Shown: one piece after another, positions 4,909 through 27,141 of the stretch
Layout: each line of letters opens with the position of its first letter
How positions within the stretch are numbered: the stretch's first letter is position 1
From: Cryptosporangium arvum DSM 44712
GTDB lineage: Bacteria > Actinomycetota > Actinomycetes > Mycobacteriales > Cryptosporangiaceae
Assembly (NCBI RefSeq): GCF_000585375.1
Contig: NZ_KK073874.1
Location: 1,178,001-1,242,000, forward strand
Reading direction: 5' to 3'
Length of the DNA: 64,000 nt
Notes under the pieces: generated by a model
The model's input: the letters and a program-made list of their open reading frames with translations, nothing else
The model's database searches: none
What the model was told of the DNA's origin: nothing
Translations under genes and position numbers: made by a program

Positions 4909-6272
4909 CTCACCCACCCAAGATCCTCGCGGCCGCATCGCGCCCGCCGCTCGCACCAGCGACACCCCCTGACCAATCCGCCCCGGCTGGTACGGCGGCC
5001 CCAGCTGGTACGGCGGCCCCAGCTGGTACGGCGGCCCCAGCTGCTACGGCGGCCCCGCCTGGTGTGGCCGTGCTGCCCGGTGTGGCCGTGCTGCCCGGTG
5101 TGGCCGTGCTGCCCGGTGTGGCCGTGCTGCCCTGCCCCGCCGCCTGGCCTTGCCCCACCGCGGTGCCCTGCCCCGCCGCCGTTCGTCACTTCCTGGCCGC
5201 GTCCGGCTCCGCGGTTGTGCCCGACCCTCTCTGCGCGCTCCAACGGGCGCTCATGCCTTCCGCCACGGTCGTGCCTCAGCCCCCGGCAGTGGCCCACACC
5301 ATGGCGCAACCCCACCCCGCAGCCATGCCTTCGCCCCAAATCGCAGCCATGCCCCCTGCGAAGCCAGTGCCCTGCGCTGCGGTGGTGACGAGCCCTAAAT
5401 CCCTACCCGGTCCCATGCCTCACCGTGCGGCTGTGCCTCATCGCGAGGCCGTGACCTATGCCCCGGTCGACACCACGACCCGTCCGGAAGCCACGAGCCG
5501 TGCCGCACCCACGAGCCCTGCCCTGCCTGCAAGCAGTGCGGCCACCGACACCCGCGCCGCGACCGACACCCGCGCCGTGACCGACACCCGCGCCGTGACC
5601 GACACCCGCGCCGCGACCGACACCCGCGCCGTGACCGACACCCGCGCCGTGACCGTCGCCCGGGCGGCGATCGGGTACTCCGCCGCGGCCCGGACCCCCA
5701 CCGCTGCCGCGCCTCGACCCGCGGCCGCGTCTCGTCTCGCGGTGGCTGCGCCCTCCTCGGCTGGGACAGTGTCTCGTCGGCCCGGACGGGGGTGGCCTCG
5801 GCTCACGATCGTGGGGGAGCGGGGGGCGGCCACCGTGGAGTTCGTGTTCGCTGGGGTGCTCCTGCTCGTGCCGCTCCTGTACCTCGCCATCGCGCTGTCC
5901 GAGGTTCAGCGCAACGCTTTCGCGGTCACTCAGGCGGCGCGGGAGGCCGGGCGTGCCTACGCCACCGCGGAGGATCCGGCCACCGCGCCGGCACGCGCCG
6001 GCTACGCGGTTCGGCTCGCGCTCGCTGATCAGGACCTTTCCGGTACGGCGGAGTTGCGCTGGGGGCCGGTCGGACGGTCCTGCGACGGCCTCACCGTCGA
6101 CTCCACGGTTAGCTCCGTCAACCAGCCGCCTTCACAGCCGGGCGCCCGCTTCGAGCTCTGCGTTCGCCGTACCTACCGCCTCCCCGGGGTTCCCACCTTC
6201 CTCGACGCGCGAAGAAACACCATCGAGGCCCGCTTCGTCGTACAGGTGGACGATCTCCGGAGTGCCCCGTGA
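4905..6272 (+). CDS. TadE/TadG-like pilus protein with ~290-aa repeat-rich extension
   Basis: The conserved part is the last ~160 residues: GERGAATVEFVFAGVLLLVPLLY (TadE-type helix with Glu), then a soluble domain with two Cys. Before it lies about 290 residues rich in Pro, Ala and Thr with three in-frame repeat blocks: AGTAAP, PGVAVL and TDTRA(A/V). This is far longer than usual for TadE-family proteins. It starts at an ATG overlapping the previous stop; the real start could instead be a GTG close to the helix (around 5768-5811), in which case the repeat region would be untranslated or belong to another product. The pilus role follows from domain and context. Confidence 0.7.
   Translation: MTHPPKILAAASRPPLAPATPPDQSAPAGTAAPAGTAAPAGTAAPAATAAPPGVAVLPGVAVLPGVAVLPGVAVLPCPAAWPCPTAVPCPAAVRHFLAASGSAVVPDPLCALQRALMPSATVVPQPPAVAHTMAQPHPAAMPSPQIAAMPPAKPVPCAAVVTSPKSLPGPMPHRAAVPHREAVTYAPVDTTTRPEATSRAAPTSPALPASSAATDTRAATDTRAVTDTRAVTDTRAATDTRAVTDTRAVTVARAAIGYSAAARTPTAAAPRPAAASRLAVAAPSSAGTVSRRPGRGWPRLTIVGERGAATVEFVFAGVLLLVPLLYLAIALSEVQRNAFAVTQAAREAGRAYATAEDPATAPARAGYAVRLALADQDLSGTAELRWGPVGRSCDGLTVDSTVSSVNQPPSQPGARFELCVRRTYRLPGVPTFLDARRNTIEARFVVQVDDLRSAP
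4986..5057 (+). repeat. 18-bp tandem repeat A (4 units, AGTAAP)
   Basis: Units of 18 bp (GCTGGTACGGCGGCCCCA), three identical and one with two changes, in frame with the TadE/G-like gene. Confidence 0.92.
5058..5129 (+). repeat. 18-bp tandem repeat B (4 units, PGVAVL)
   Basis: Four units of CCCGGTGTGGCCGTGCTG, directly abutting repeat A, same 18-bp period but unrelated sequence. Confidence 0.92.
5544..5651 (+). repeat. 18-bp tandem repeat C (6 units, TDTRA[A/V])
   Basis: Six units of ACCGACACCCGCGCCGTG/GCG, then a decayed seventh (5652-5669). Third independent 18-bp array in the same reading frame. Confidence 0.92.
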
Positions 6273-14205: not shown

Positions 14206-14574
14206 GGGGGTGATTGGTCTCGACACCGGACGTTGAGACAGGAGAAGCGGGCCGAGGAAGGCAACGATGATCTCGTAAACCATGCGTTGCAACCAATTAA
14301 GCGCCGACTCTGATCAGCGCGCGTTCGCTCTCGCTGCCTAAGCTAGAGCAACGCTGTCAGACCGGGAGTGCCTTCGGCCCGGACCCTGGCATCAGCAAGA
14401 GGGCTCACTAGCTAGTCCGGCTATCGGGACGAGCTAGGAAATCTCACAGTGGCTGGGCTCGTCACATCGGCTTGTTCGCGTGACCGATGGGGCCAAGTAG
14501 AGGCATAGCGAACTGCGCCCGGAGAAGACCTGTTGAGGCGACGGTGGACGCGGGTTCGATTCCCGCCACCTCCA
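14206..14574 (+). ncRNA. ssrA: Transfer-messenger RNA
   Basis: The 5' end GGGGGTG pairs with the 3' CACCTCC to make the acceptor stem (one G-U pair), and GCGGGTTCGATTCCCGC near the 3' end is the T arm. The tag frame begins at GCC 14303: ADSDQRAFALAA, stop TAA 14339-14341, ending in the ALAA degradation signal typical of actinobacteria. CCA is not encoded. Linkage to smpB and a following terminator complete the picture. Confidence 0.96.
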
Positions 14575-21191: not shown

Positions 21192-21701
21192 TTAGGCCCG
21201 CGCGCGCCAGATGTCGGTTGAGATGCCGAGCACGGGATTGTGAATCTGCCGGTCGAGGGTCAGGCCGAGCTTCGTCGCCACCCGCTGCGAGCGGGTGTTC
21301 AGCGGATGGATGATCGAGATGACCTCGGGCAGTTCCAGCCGCGCGAAGGCGTCGTCCCGGGCGGCGGTCGCGGCCTCGGTGGCGAGCCCCATACCCCACT
21401 TCCGCGGGTCCAGGCGCCAGCCCAGTTCGGGGGCGGGGCCGGCGTCGGCCAGGAACGGCGGTACGTACGCCAGCCCGGCGAACCCGACGAAGTCGCCCTC
21501 GTGTTCGACGGCCCAGGCGCCGAAGCCGTGCGTCTCCCAGTGGCCGACGATCAGGCCGTAGAACGCGTCCACCGACGCCTCGTCGACGGGGCGGTTCAGA
21601 TAGCGGCCGACGTCGGGATGGCGGTTGATCGCGGCCATCGCGGGCTCGTCGTCCGGCCGCCAGCGGCGGAGCAGCAGCCGCTCGGTACGCAGTTCGTCCA
21701 C
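21192..21701 (-). CDS. GNAT-family N-acetyltransferase (RimJ-like)
   Basis: A 169-aa acetyltransferase: VDELRTERLLLRRWRPDDEPAMAAINRHPDVGRYL at the N-terminus, FVGFAGLAYV, PELGWRLDPRKWGMGLATEAATAARDDAF (acetyl-CoA binding) and HPLNTRSQRVATKLGL. Resembles RimJ/RimL-type enzymes that acetylate protein N-termini or small molecules. The GTG at 21701 begins at the conserved N-terminus; the longer open frame upstream runs into the terminator and tRNA-like genes and is not coding. Confidence 0.88.
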   Translation of the reverse strand: MDELRTERLLLRRWRPDDEPAMAAINRHPDVGRYLNRPVDEASVDAFYGLIVGHWETHGFGAWAVEHEGDFVGFAGLAYVPPFLADAGPAPELGWRLDPRKWGMGLATEAATAARDDAFARLELPEVISIIHPLNTRSQRVATKLGLTLDRQIHNPVLGISTDIWRARA

Positions 21702-21851
21702 GCCCGCAGTCTCCCGAGCCGCTTCGTGTCCCACGCAGTCCAATTCCGTCGGAGATTGGCCGGGGCCTGGAGTCCGTCGACGCGTGAACGTCGACGTGCC
21801 GACACGGAGCAGGCTGCGCACCAGGAACGCACGCGGCCAGGGGGCAGAGGC

Positions 21852-21883
21852 GGGCCCGGGGGCTTTACCCGTCCCCCGGGCCC
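21852..21883 (-). terminator. Hairpin directly after the minus-strand tRNA-like genes
   Basis: An 11-bp perfect stem (GGGCCCGGGGG/CCCCCGGGCCC) with a 10-base loop, starting one base past the CCA end of the short tRNA-like gene. Position suggests it ends the unit that begins at about 23.02 kb. No T-run. Confidence 0.7.
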
Positions 21884-21953
21884 TGGGAGTTGGCGGGATT
21901 CGAACCCGCGTCCTCATCCTGGAAAGGATGCGCGCTTCCACTGCGCTACAACT
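21884..21953 (-). tRNA. Shortened tRNA-like gene, UCC anticodon region, encoded CCA
   Basis: Reading the minus strand: acceptor AGTTG/CAACT (5 bp), T8-A9, D stem GCGC/GCGC with GG in the loop, anticodon stem CATCC/GGATG closing a 6-base loop TTTCCA, variable AGGAC, T arm GCGGG-TTCGAAT-CCCGC, discriminator C, then CCA. Every stem is perfectly paired, yet the acceptor is 2 bp short and the anticodon loop 1 base short. The loop would present UCC (Gly GGA). Perfect pairing argues against random decay. A non-decoding tRNA mimic is possible. Confidence 0.65.
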
Positions 21954-21984
21954 TTCGCCTCGAAACGACGTTCGTCAGCGGGTG

Positions 21985-22087
21985 ATGCCGGTCAGCCTGA
22001 ATCGCTGCGCTCTGCCGTTGAGCTATTCCGCCGGGATGGAGGCGGAACCAGGATTTGAACCTGGAACCTCAGCGAGTGAGCCGGCAT
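21985..22087 (-). tRNA. Candidate circularly permuted tRNA gene (UCA anticodon after joining)
   Basis: On the minus strand the 3' half comes first: CGCTG (22074-22070), variable AGGTT, T arm CCAGG-TTCAAAT-CCTGG, acceptor strand TTCCGCC, discriminator T and CCA (22039-22037). After TCCC comes the 5' half: GGCGGAA (22032-22026), TA, D arm GCTC-AACGGCA-GAGC, G26 and CAGCG (22007-22003). GGCGGAA pairs TTCCGCC and CAGCG pairs CGCTG. Flanks CCGGCAT (21991-21985) and ATGCCGG (22087-22081) are also complementary. Joining the halves gives loop ATTCACT: U33 and anticodon UCA. A15-U48 is conserved. Two broken tandem tRNAs is the alternative. Confidence 0.65.
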
Positions 22088-22224
22088 ACGTTCGTGCCGG
22101 ACGTCCGAAGCGGGTATTCAGTTTGGCGCGAGAGCTTCAACCTCATGGTCAGCTTGATCGTCAGCTTCAGCTTCTCCGGCCGTTGCGGGCCGGTGACCCC
22201 GCGCGCCAGCGGGGTGTTCGGGGG

Positions 22225-22998
22225 CTACTCCCGCAGGAGGTAGCCGGTGAGGGCGGCGCCGAGCGGCTTGTCGACGACCGCTGCCAGGTTGGCCTGCTCG
22301 CGCGCCATGCGCACCGCCGCGACGAGCTTGTCGACCCGATCGAGGAGCGTCGCCTTGCGGCCGGCGGGGATCGCTCCGGAGAGCTTGACCGTCGTCCAGA
22401 AGCCGACGACGACGTCCTCGTTGTAGGACGTGACCTGCGCCGGGTGCTTCTCGGTGGCCTCGTAGAGCACCTGCACGCGCGGCACCTTCGCGGTGCGGGT
22501 GGTCTCCCGCGGCTCCGAGCGGTAGGCCTCGGCGTCGACGTCGCGGGTCCAGGCCTCGGCGATGTCGAGGACCGGCAGCTTGGCGAGCACGCCGCGCCAG
22601 TCGACGAGCTCCTTCTCCGCGGTCATCAGGAAGGTGACGGGCACGTCCGCCGCGATGGTCTCGCCGTCGACGACGATGTCACCGCGCGCCCGCGTGTTCG
22701 TCTCGTCCTTACTGGCCGTGACGTCGAACAGGCGGGAGAGCGTGCGTGCCGCCTCGTCGAGCAGCTCCTCGACGTGAACCTGGACGCGGGTGCGCTCGTC
22801 GGGCAGGCGCACGCCCTCGTCGTCGATCGGCCGGTACGTGCGGATGAGGCCGGTGAGGGCCGCGTCGAGCGAACCGCGCTGCATCTGCTGGTGGATGGCG
22901 GATTGAGCGTCCTTGGCGCGAGCCTTGACGCTCTTCTCGATCGCCACGATCTGGTTGAGCAGCGTGGTGCGACCGGGGGCCTGAGCGGTGGTGGTCAT
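22225..22998 (-). CDS. Conserved hypothetical protein, 257 aa, next to abnormal tRNA genes
   Basis: A soluble protein of no family I can name. The N-terminal ~50 residues are a basic helix (LLNQIVAIEKSVKARAKDAQSAIHQQMQRG); the middle carries DERTRVQVHVEELLDEAARTLSRLFDVTASKD; the last third has VVVGFWTTVKLSGAIPAGRKATLLDRVDKLVAAVRMAREQANLA. No signal peptide or membrane span. The ATG has a GGGAAGG ribosome site and a promoter with a palindrome in its spacer lies 30 bases upstream. Downstream on the same strand, with no terminator visible before them, are the two tRNA-like genes. That context suggests work on RNA or tRNA, which is inference only. Confidence 0.8.
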   Translation of the reverse strand: MTTTAQAPGRTTLLNQIVAIEKSVKARAKDAQSAIHQQMQRGSLDAALTGLIRTYRPIDDEGVRLPDERTRVQVHVEELLDEAARTLSRLFDVTASKDETNTRARGDIVVDGETIAADVPVTFLMTAEKELVDWRGVLAKLPVLDIAEAWTRDVDAEAYRSEPRETTRTAKVPRVQVLYEATEKHPAQVTSYNEDVVVGFWTTVKLSGAIPAGRKATLLDRVDKLVAAVRMAREQANLAAVVDKPLGAALTGYLLRE

Positions 22999-24726: not shown

Positions 24727-27141
24727 ATGAAGCACCTGCGCTCGCGTCAGCACGTCGTCGACATGTGCCGCACCCTTCTGGAACGGGGTTACCTCAAGGC
24801 CACCGAGGGCAACGTCTCGGTGCGGGTGCCGAGCCACGACTGTTACGCGGTCACGCCGAGTAACTACGACTACGACAAGATGCGCCCCGAGGACATCTGC
24901 CTTGTCGGTTTCGACGGCAAACCGCTTCCGGACGACGACGCGTCGGGGCTGGCACCGTCGATCGAGTGCGGCATGCACGCGAACATCTACCGCGAGCGGC
25001 CGGACGTGAACGCGATCGTGCACACGCACCAGCCGTACGCGTCGGCGCTGGCGTTCCTGCGCAAGGAGATCCCGGCGCTCACCGACGAGCAGGTGCGGTT
25101 CCTCGGGCGCAAAGTCGCGATCATCCCGTACGCGCCGTCGGGGACGTCGTTCCTCGCGAAGAAGGTGCAGAAGCGTGTCACGAGCGGTGACAACGCGTTC
25201 ATCATCGCGAACCACGGGATCATCGCGGTCGGTACCGATCCCGACCGTGCGGTGTTCAACATGGCGCTGCTGGAGAAGGTGTCGCTGGCTTATCTGCTCG
25301 CGTTGACCACGGAGTCGGGCAAGATCTACACGATTCCGGACGCGATCCGGGAGGTCGCGTTCACCAAGCTGCGCAAGGACGAGAAGAAGATCGCCGCGCA
25401 GATCACGGCGGCGGTGCGCCCCATCCGTGTCCCCGAGGGCGAAGACCTGCCCAGCGCGGGCACCCCCGATCTCGCCGGCTCGGCCGCGCTCCAGCACCCG
25501 GGCGCAGCCGAGCCGGCGACCGACCCGGCCGCGCTCCAGCACCCGGGTGCGGCGGAGCCGTCGACCACCCCGGCCGGGACCGGACCACTCAGCGCGATCG
25601 CCGACCTGGCCTCGGCCGGCGGCGACGACCCGGTCGGGGCCCCGTCCGAGCCCACCCCGGCACCCGCCCCGGAACCCACCGAACCGACGCCCGACCACGG
25701 CTACGCGATCAGCACCTACCCGGACGTCCCCGACACGATGCGCCGCCTCAAGGCCCTCGTCGCCCAGCCGGTCCGGGGCCTCCGCCACGACGCGATGCTC
25801 GACGTCCTCAACTACTTCGAAACCAAGTGCACGGCCAGCAAGGAGATCACCGACCGCGCCAAGACGCGCATTCCCGGTGGCGTCCAGCACAACCTGGCCT
25901 TCAACTACCCGTTCCCGCTCGCGATCGAGAAGGCCGAAGGCGCCTACCTCACCGACCGCGACGGCAACACCTACATCGACTTCCTCCAGGCCGGCGGCCC
26001 GACCCTCCTCGGTAGCAACTACGCACCGGTGAACGAGAAGGTCGCCGACGTGATCAAGGCGTCCGGCCCCGTCACCGGCCTCTTCCACGAGTACGAACTC
26101 AAGCTCGCCGAGATCATCCACACCTACATGCCGCACATCGAGATGTACCGCTCGCTCGGTTCCGGCACCGAGGCGGTGATGGCGGCGGTCCGCGGCGCTC
26201 GTGCGTTCACCGGCAAGAACGTCGTGATCAAGGTCGGCGGCGCGTACCACGGCTGGTCGGACACGATGGTCTACGGGCTGCGCGTGCCCGGCACGTACCG
26301 GATGAACGCGAAGGGCATCCCGTTCGGGGCCACCGGCGCCACCCGCGAGGCGTTCCCGCACGACCTCGGCCTGCTCAAGCGCAAGCTCATCGAGAACCGC
26401 GTCCGGGGTGGCACGGCCGCGGTGATCGTGGAGCCCGTCGGCCCCGAATCGGGTACGCGGCCGGTGCCCGAGGACTACAACGCCAAGGTCCGCGAGCTCT
26501 GCGACGAGTTCGGCGCGCTGCTGATCTTCGACGAGGTCGTCACCGGTTTCCGGCTGGGGATGGGCGGAGCGTCCGGGTACTTCGGCGTCACGCCCGACCT
26601 GACCGTGCTGGGCAAGGCCGTCTCCGGCGGTTACCCGATGGCCGGCGGCGTCGGCGGACGGGCCGACGTGATGGCGGTGTTCGGCTCCGGTCTGGACGGC
26701 AAGAACGGCTCGCACGTGCAGGTGGGCGGCACCCTGAGCGCGAACCCGCTCTCCTGCGCGGCCGGGTACTTCGCGATCGAGGAGATGGCGCGCACGAACG
26801 CACCGGTGAAGGCCGGGCGCGCCGGCGACCGCCTCACCCGCGGGCTGCAGCGCCTCATCGGCGATTTCGGCCTGCCGTACGTCGCCTACAACCAGGGCTC
26901 GATCGTTCACCTGGAAGTCAGCGGCGTGATGCTGCTCGACATGCGTCACCCGATGAAGCTTCTGAAGGAGAACAAGCCGCGTAAGCGGCTCATGGAGCAG
27001 ATGAGCGCGGCCTATGCTGCGCACGGCATCATCACGCTCGCCGGGTCGCGCATGTACACGTCGATGGCCGATACCGACGAGGTGATCGACGACGCCCTGG
27101 GTCGGTTCGAGCAGGTGTTTTCCCTGGTGGAGGGCGTGTGA
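24727..27141 (+). CDS. Class II aldolase - class III aminotransferase fusion
   Basis: An 804-aa two-domain enzyme. Residues 1-235: class II aldolase/adducin fold with the catalytic Glu in SIEC, zinc ligands in IVHTHQPY and a third His in ANHGIIAVG. Residues ~235-325: Pro/Ala linker with a duplicated ALQHPGAAEP motif. Residues ~340-804: class III PLP aminotransferase like glutamate-1-semialdehyde aminomutase (GSGTEAVMAAVRGARAFTG, AYHGWSD, LLIFDEVVTGFR, and the PLP Lys in LGKAVSGGYP). Both sites look intact. The kinase gene starts 4 bases inside its end. Suggested role: catabolism of an amino- or phospho-sugar-like compound in which transamination and C-C cleavage are consecutive; substrate unknown. 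Confidence 0.85.
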   Translation: MKHLRSRQHVVDMCRTLLERGYLKATEGNVSVRVPSHDCYAVTPSNYDYDKMRPEDICLVGFDGKPLPDDDASGLAPSIECGMHANIYRERPDVNAIVHTHQPYASALAFLRKEIPALTDEQVRFLGRKVAIIPYAPSGTSFLAKKVQKRVTSGDNAFIIANHGIIAVGTDPDRAVFNMALLEKVSLAYLLALTTESGKIYTIPDAIREVAFTKLRKDEKKIAAQITAAVRPIRVPEGEDLPSAGTPDLAGSAALQHPGAAEPATDPAALQHPGAAEPSTTPAGTGPLSAIADLASAGGDDPVGAPSEPTPAPAPEPTEPTPDHGYAISTYPDVPDTMRRLKALVAQPVRGLRHDAMLDVLNYFETKCTASKEITDRAKTRIPGGVQHNLAFNYPFPLAIEKAEGAYLTDRDGNTYIDFLQAGGPTLLGSNYAPVNEKVADVIKASGPVTGLFHEYELKLAEIIHTYMPHIEMYRSLGSGTEAVMAAVRGARAFTGKNVVIKVGGAYHGWSDTMVYGLRVPGTYRMNAKGIPFGATGATREAFPHDLGLLKRKLIENRVRGGTAAVIVEPVGPESGTRPVPEDYNAKVRELCDEFGALLIFDEVVTGFRLGMGGASGYFGVTPDLTVLGKAVSGGYPMAGGVGGRADVMAVFGSGLDGKNGSHVQVGGTLSANPLSCAAGYFAIEEMARTNAPVKAGRAGDRLTRGLQRLIGDFGLPYVAYNQGSIVHLEVSGVMLLDMRHPMKLLKENKPRKRLMEQMSAAYAAHGIITLAGSRMYTSMADTDEVIDDALGRFEQVFSLVEGV

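Follow-up and report, generated by a model that had tools for sequence, protein, structure and literature searches.

Circularly permuted tRNA genes of algae and archaea carry the 3' half of the tRNA before the 5' half, with complementary halves, paired outer flanks and a bulge-helix-bulge motif at the junction, and in permuted tmRNA genes the order of the acceptor region is CCA, loop and G1. Permuted tmRNA works in two pieces, as stated in the available part of PMC3978253. In bacterial Y RNA (YrlA), the partner of Ro60 (Rsr), a permuted head made of a T arm, a closed acceptor hairpin and a D arm stands on a stem formed by the RNA ends, and the RNA is linked to one protein gene. The structure of a bacterial Y RNA (6CU1) superposes on tRNAs with a circular permutation (PMC11472068, in excerpt). 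According to PMC7790460, Y RNA tethers the Ro60 protein to PNPase in Deinococcus radiodurans, and the same source raises the possibility that the tRNA-like domain of YrlA might competitively inhibit an anticodon nuclease. For jumbo phages, Ro60-related or TROVE proteins and a Y RNA or tRNA-like partner are mentioned in PMC7765460 and PMC7824862; DUF7873, the protein family considered below, is not mentioned in the available portions of these two articles.

The window analysed here, a stretch of 64,000 nucleotides from Cryptosporangium arvum DSM 44712, carries at 21985-22087 of the minus strand a permuted tRNA-like head on a basal 7-bp stem, separated from it by a 6x11 internal loop. Read along this strand, the element begins with the left strand of the outer stem (ATGCCGG, 22081-22087) followed by CTCACT, and continues with the 3' strand of the anticodon stem (CGCTG, 22070-22074) followed by the variable region AGGTT, the T arm (22048-22064), the 3' acceptor strand TTCCGCC with U73 and CCA (22037-22047), the bases TCCC that lie between the two acceptor strands (22033-22036), the 5' acceptor strand GGCGGAA (22026-22032), the D arm (22009-22023), the 5' strand of the anticodon stem (CAGCG, 22003-22007), the 11-nt 3' side of the internal loop (ATTCAGGCTGA, 21992-22002), whose terminal CTGA recurs in an alignment of 71 modules, and the right strand of the outer stem (CCGGCAT, 21985-21991). 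The order of the tRNA body is that claimed by a sequence-only reading of this DNA, and the pairing which it had described was confirmed in every arm, with 7/7 pairs in the acceptor, 5/5 in the anticodon stem, 5/5 in the T arm, 4/4 in the D arm and 7/7 in the outer flank. ARAGORN called no tRNA at 21985-22087 of the unrotated window. In contrast to the unrotated window, ARAGORN called a tRNA with anticodon TCA in the rotated and joined sequence from the window genome (G000) and from two same-genus genomes (G002 and G003).

The element, hereafter module 2, is kept in these two of three same-genus genomes; in the third, G001, no match was found for the RNA nor for DUF7873. Among the three copies of the window genus, double-sided changes affect three pairs in the outer stem and T arm, a number equalled in 34 of 500 shuffles, and these paired changes may be taken as suggestive evidence of covariation. 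Inspection of the same three copies places the junction within a continuing stem, at the 6x11 internal loop that separates the 7-bp stem from the 5-bp stem.

Using cmscan, the element matched the Rfam YrlA family (RF02553) at 21982-22087 over the full length of the model (1-114) with 35.2 bits, below the gathering score of 69 bits, and the sister copies scored 32.7 and 30.3 bits. In five relatives, a YrlA-like element lying within a kilobase of a TROVE match scored between 28.8 and 43.6 bits, also below 69, so that a score of about 35 bits is what TROVE-linked elements of this order commonly reach. Taken by itself, the YrlA match is nevertheless weak, because tandem ordinary tRNAs reach 33.6 bits with the same model (L072). 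A search for a Ro60/TROVE gene gave no match in the window genome, and the element, which does contain a permuted tRNA-like module of the YrlA type, is therefore not classed as a Y RNA proper. Like YrlA with Ro60, the element and its homologues combine a permuted head, a stem and linkage to one protein gene. Unlike YrlA, they adjoin DUF7873 and not TROVE, usually possess two heads and a terminal hairpin, have a 7-bp acceptor stem and sometimes NCCA, and score below the Rfam cut-off. Of 20 genomes that carry DUF7873, entire or as a fragment, nine also encode TROVE, either on a different contig or at a distance of over 1 Mb; in 21 loci surrounding TROVE genes or their YrlA-like elements, several of them overlapping, no DUF7873 was detected, and the TROVE-linked YrlA-like loci of relatives lie at other places than the DUF7873 loci. 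Four TROVE-linked YrlA-like loci (L067, L069, L070 and L087) carry TGATCTCGG-like direct repeats on both sides together with a GGTTACTTC motif.

To locate homologues, a covariance model built from the three copies of the window genus (R1) was applied to 397 genomes of the order and gave matches at E 1e-4 or better in 39 of them. Thirty R1 loci were inspected: 20 lie beside DUF7873, just downstream of this gene and on the same strand, two by a TROVE gene (L122 and L128) and one by neither, and the remaining seven (L115, L118, L120, L123, L124, L125 and L127) are tandem ordinary tRNAs, which were not counted as homologues. Other R1 matches among the 397 genomes were taken in only where their coordinates fall beside DUF7873. 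Two of the 20 loci, L105 (G362) and L112 (G316), have only a fragment of DUF7873 upstream of the module. As tandem tRNAs give matches with both R1 and the YrlA model, model scores alone were not relied on.

Regarding the protein, the Pfam DUF7873 model identified the family in 22 of the 397 genomes, and the permuted module lies beside it in 22/22, found in 20 of these genomes by R1 and in the remaining two, G104 and G385, by a structure parser described below. A scan of genome contigs further revealed at least 560 bacterial stretches encoding a DUF7873 relative. Among the best 80 of these, a biased sample, the R1 module was detected in 80/80 actinobacterial loci with E 6.7e-7 or better in each; 64 of the 80 hold two or more modules and one holds three. 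The linkage between DUF7873 and the RNA is tight but not perfect. When 17 regions of up to 19 kb were compared, no gene family beyond DUF7873 and its overlapping frames was common to more than five, so that the locus looks like a two-part cassette consisting of one protein and one RNA.

Several individual loci deserve mention. In Actinocatenispora rupis (L175), three permuted modules are found in one RNA region. L140 (G362) and L146 (G316) show short DUF7873 fragments beside intact RNA modules, possibly through gene decay or an assembly fault. In G181 (L126; L148, 9100-9200, minus strand), a permuted tRNA-like element was detected at 40.8 bits; no DUF7873 was seen in the surrounding 18 kb, nor any TROVE in the genome.

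DUF7873 is also encoded by phages, where it was found in 73 of 50,697 records. Permuted modules follow the gene in 10 of the 11 phage records examined out of these 73, and the hosts of the ten phages are Arthrobacter, Gordonia, Rhodococcus, Pseudanabaena, Rhizobium, Klebsiella and Vibrio; the module of Pseudanabaena phage PA-SR01 (L155), located 620 nt from DUF7873, is less certain. Neither the parser nor R1 revealed a convincing module after DUF7873 in the Microcoleus phage (L156). From viral contigs, 80 of 420 relatives were kept, of which 74 have at least 450 nt downstream and two also belong to the 118-locus set introduced below. The parser found a module in 66 of these 74 contigs and two modules in 51, R1 added two loci (L288 and L266), and in the other six no convincing module was seen with either method. 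The DUF7873 copies of three phages examined sit within tRNA arrays, and in a Klebsiella jumbo phage a head overlaps a feature labelled tRNA-Sup-TTA. Two observations concern the less typical phages: near DUF7873 in PA-SR01, a permuted tmRNA match of 31.9 bits, below threshold, lies at 5790-5969 (plus strand) of L155, and a HEARO RNA (129.1 bits; L156, 3944-4153, plus strand) is found directly after DUF7873 in the Microcoleus phage.

The parser, which uses no trained model, looks for the permuted succession of a TTCNA-looped T arm, an acceptor hairpin and a D arm, with six acceptor pairs required. Downstream of DUF7873 it detected a module in 116 of 118 loci, compared with 6/118 on the reverse strand, 0-4/118 in five shuffles and 6/113 upstream; the corresponding controls in the viral set gave 4/74 and 6/72. 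About 5% of the parser hits may be due to chance. Beyond the 116, R1 placed a module about 770 nt downstream in L163. An alignment (A7) was prepared with plain MAFFT from the last parsed module of 114 loci, reduced to 72 by removing acceptor loops longer than 10 nt and near-duplicates and then to 71 sequences by removing L175, whose row was module 1. The choice of these sequences by the parser favours pairing and fixes part of the T loop, but few loci were missed by it.

In this alignment double-sided changes occur at each of the seven acceptor pairs, and the acceptor, the T arm and the D arm are paired in 99.2%, 100% and 99.6% of cells, respectively. The whole structure contains 259 double-change cells, compared with a shuffled mean of 82 (none of 500 shuffles reached 259) and with at most 104 when the partners were slid. 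The number of pairs with double changes, a weaker one of five measures, was 18 against 15.1 in shuffles (13/500). The anticodon helix is paired in 57.7% of cells at one register, a weakness that we attribute, by eye, to a one-base register shift between clades. In agreement with the acceptor data, the permuted acceptor of the first module is fully paired (7/7) in 85 of 85 two-module loci, with 27 different strand pairs. Covariation between the halves, which the sequence-only reading had named as a check, is present across the homologues, and the permuted tRNA-like fold of module 2 is not a product of chance.

The bases that are invariant or at least 90% conserved are U8, G10, A14, G18, G19, A21, G53, U54, U55, C56, A58 and C61, positions being assigned by hand and the T-loop TTCNA being required by the parser; by this assignment they fall at the positions that hold together the core and elbow of a tRNA. 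As discriminator, 79 of 85 first modules have A; in the 85 second modules G occurs 44 times, U 37 times and A four times. ARAGORN called a linear tRNA overlapping the permuted head, with a shared T arm, in 20 of the 118 loci: in 19, all actinobacterial, it lies over head 1, and the remaining case is L166. In all 20 the permuted acceptor pairs 7/7, compared with 7/7 in four, 6/7 in 12 and 5/7 in four for the linear one. The permuted fold is better than or equal to the linear one in every case, and the linear tRNA may be a competing fold there. No linear tRNA was called by ARAGORN over head 2 of the window.

The head belongs to a larger RNA region. Directly upstream and on the same strand lies the gene for the 257-aa DUF7873 protein (PF25283; 22225-22998, minus; Pfam E 1.4e-94), which adjoins the modules across loci. 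A GC-rich hairpin at 22197-22214 (minus), 10 nt past the DUF7873 stop, marks the 5' end of the region and has a counterpart at about the same place in a consensus folded from 57 short-loop loci with two modules each, the window not among them. This consensus consists of two heads, each carried by a long and irregular stem whose internal loops are rich in CUGA, and of a final hairpin with the loop cuGG.uA. On the minus strand of the window, the stretch at 22147-22173 resembles by eye the left stem strand that flanks module 1 in L137 (AAGCTGA..CTGA motif), which is paired in the consensus fold of the other loci, and the stretch at 22110-22146 resembles by eye the right stem strand that follows module 1 in relatives; L137 has module 1 at the corresponding place. 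Module 1 is missing from the window genus: the window gives a single R1 match, and L097 and L098 a single parsed module each. From this resemblance of the strands, head 1 would appear to have been lost in the window genus with its stem strands kept.

Beyond module 2, a terminal GC hairpin with a loop around GACGGGTAAAGC (21852-21883, minus), like the final hairpin of the 57-locus consensus, is the likely 3' end of the RNA; no T run follows it. A terminator scan gave a single terminator-like site, on the opposite strand and at chance level, a scan of the window locus for sigma-70-type promoters found none, and a DNA similarity search with the RNA region in plasmids gave no match. Between module 2 and the terminal hairpin, a linear tRNA-like segment occupies 21884-21956 (minus). 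Its anticodon loop has 6 nt in the window and is a UCA loop in G002 and G003, in which the first acceptor pair is mismatched. This segment is possibly a further tRNA mimic and not a decoding tRNA. In L149 (G233), a linear tRNA(tcg) was called after the permuted module, an arrangement like that of the window.

The DUF7873 protein of the window scored 316.9 bits against a curated Pfam cut-off of 27, and six phage homologues scored 218.7-339.2 bits. Its predicted fold is confident (pLDDT 89, pTM 0.75). With Foldseek, nothing in PDB or BFVD reached E 0.001, the best VIA-align hit had a Z of 6.8 (rmsd 8.4 over 127 residues), a range that the tool calls unspecific, and the best hit of hmmsearch against PDB sequences had an E of 0.045; no TROVE-like protein was among the structure and sequence matches listed. 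One weak match was obtained in PHROGs (phrog_26097, function unknown, E 0.17), none in NCBIfam up to E 1 and none with PADLOC for three DUF7873 proteins. DUF7873 has no recognised fold or RNA-binding annotation, and the case for its binding RNA accordingly stands on the linkage. Neither DUF7873 nor PF25283 is mentioned in the literature searched, to which the articles describing YrlA in bacteria do not belong.

These data demonstrate the fold with its covariation, its tight association with the DUF7873 gene and its occurrence across actinobacteria and phages. The linkage to a single protein, the stem-plus-head design and a tRNA core without anticodon together suggest a ribonucleoprotein whose heads dock on a tRNA-binding protein. 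The best reading of the locus would be a Y-RNA-like ribonucleoprotein in which DUF7873 takes the place of Ro60, an inference as far as expression, binding, partner and function are concerned. Just after DUF7873, a structured noncoding RNA of roughly 350 nt would be encoded, probably as the 3' part of the DUF7873 transcript. In most relatives it would comprise two Y-RNA-like elements in tandem, each a permuted cloverleaf placed on a long irregular stem at the position of the anticodon loop of a tRNA, and the window element would be the second head. The RNA, once made, would be bound at its stems by DUF7873 to form a ribonucleoprotein, as Ro60 does with Y RNA, and its heads, which would not decode, could engage a protein that recognises the tRNA elbow. 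This protein would most likely be tethered to DUF7873, or possibly be occupied as by a decoy; tethering and decoy action are both possible. We consider this explanation as a whole, from the putative noncoding RNA and its tRNA-like heads to the ribonucleoprotein and the elbow-recognising partner, to be likely. The RNA-protein system, built on tRNA mimicry, is apparently undescribed.

An alternative gives the heads a different role, namely that of uncleavable decoys that occupy tRNA-targeting nucleases or other tRNA enzymes, with DUF7873 stabilising or delivering the RNA. It draws on the elbow being kept where the anticodon loop is absent: the tRNA core is conserved and the anticodon is not. The position of DUF7873 within the tRNA arrays of three examined phages and the anticodon nuclease inhibition considered for YrlA (PMC7790460, in the part available) point the same way. 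Against it, no linked nuclease or defence gene was seen in the 17 regions of up to 19 kb, PADLOC matched none of the three proteins and the element is widespread in actinobacterial genomes, and we regard the decoy role as unlikely.

The acceptor ends bear on a further alternative, in which the acceptor loop is cut to yield a two-piece, CCA-ended and chargeable tRNA-like molecule, as in two-piece tmRNA. An acceptor ending in NCCA is seen in 50 of the 182 bacterial modules, and the counts for the first and second viral sets are 10/17 and 52/118. These frequencies exceed the 1 in 64 expected of random letters; this excess counts against a pure mimic, which need not keep NCCA. CCA is kept in the window genus and in many phage modules, and the order CCA-loop-G1 resembles that of permuted tmRNA genes, in which, as here, the acceptor ends are joined by a loop. 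However, 132 of the 182 bacterial modules lack CCA, and the window already has a one-piece tmRNA at 14206. The permuted tmRNA model (RF04321) gave no match in the window at its gathering score and none up to E 10 at 21600-22400. Processing into two pieces is accordingly improbable.

The sequence-only reading had itself proposed a true circularly permuted tRNA gene, with TCA at both open ends, whose ends would be joined within TCA to produce a loop with U33 and a UGA-reading anticodon. The joined sequence is indeed called tRNA(tca) in three species, the second tRNA-like segment, with its UCA loop in G002 and G003, adjoins, and the locus shares with algal and archaeal permuted tRNA genes the order of the halves, their complementarity and the paired outer flanks, one cloverleaf being formed from the permuted halves. 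The TCA overlap holds in the window, but among 71 homologous modules just three have it, two of these being from the window genus, and both sister species with the element have A instead of U at loop base 33. A conserved anticodon loop is thus missing, no bulge-helix-bulge was seen by inspection of the three window-genus copies, CCA is confined to 50/182 bacterial modules, and, unlike in the algal and archaeal genes, the head forms part of a larger RNA region tightly tied to a protein gene. The rarity of the TCA overlap, A33 and the homologues lead us to reject the joined UCA tRNA, which is not supported and which we hold to be very improbable.

Finally, a remnant of two tandem tRNA genes minus their outer halves, the outcome that the sequence-only reading had named as its refutation, is barely credible: tandem tRNAs give similar model scores, and tandem duplication with loss of outer segments has been hypothesised for permuted rRNA and tmRNA genes (PMC3978253, in excerpt) and may be the remote origin of the element, but the same arrangement recurs with compensatory changes beside DUF7873 in distant hosts and phages, and the halves of a remnant would not covary.

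Returning to the Y-RNA-like ribonucleoprotein, Ro60 with Y RNA is the known case of tethering by a tRNA-mimicking RNA. DUF7873, for which no sequence relation to Ro60 was seen, is found in at least 560 bacterial genome stretches and in phages of very different hosts. We put forward tentatively, as an idea that may prove right but that we would not yet call probable, that the two-headed RNA and DUF7873 together represent a ribonucleoprotein class without kinship to Ro60, one that arrived with a different protein at the Y-RNA design of a permuted tRNA head on a protein-binding stem, and with which phages and actinobacteria would capture or disarm a tRNA-handling enzyme. If true, a second protein family would have its own permuted tRNA-like RNA, making permuted tRNA mimicry a general design, and there would be a first functional handle on DUF7873 and on "hypothetical" genes beside phage tRNA arrays. 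Such RNAs can be annotated as tRNAs, as illustrated by the tRNA-Sup-TTA of the Klebsiella jumbo phage.

Elsewhere in the window, a reading frame at 24727-27141 (plus strand) encodes a fusion of a class II aldolase domain with a class III aminotransferase, and a similar frame lies near the locus in G002 and G003.
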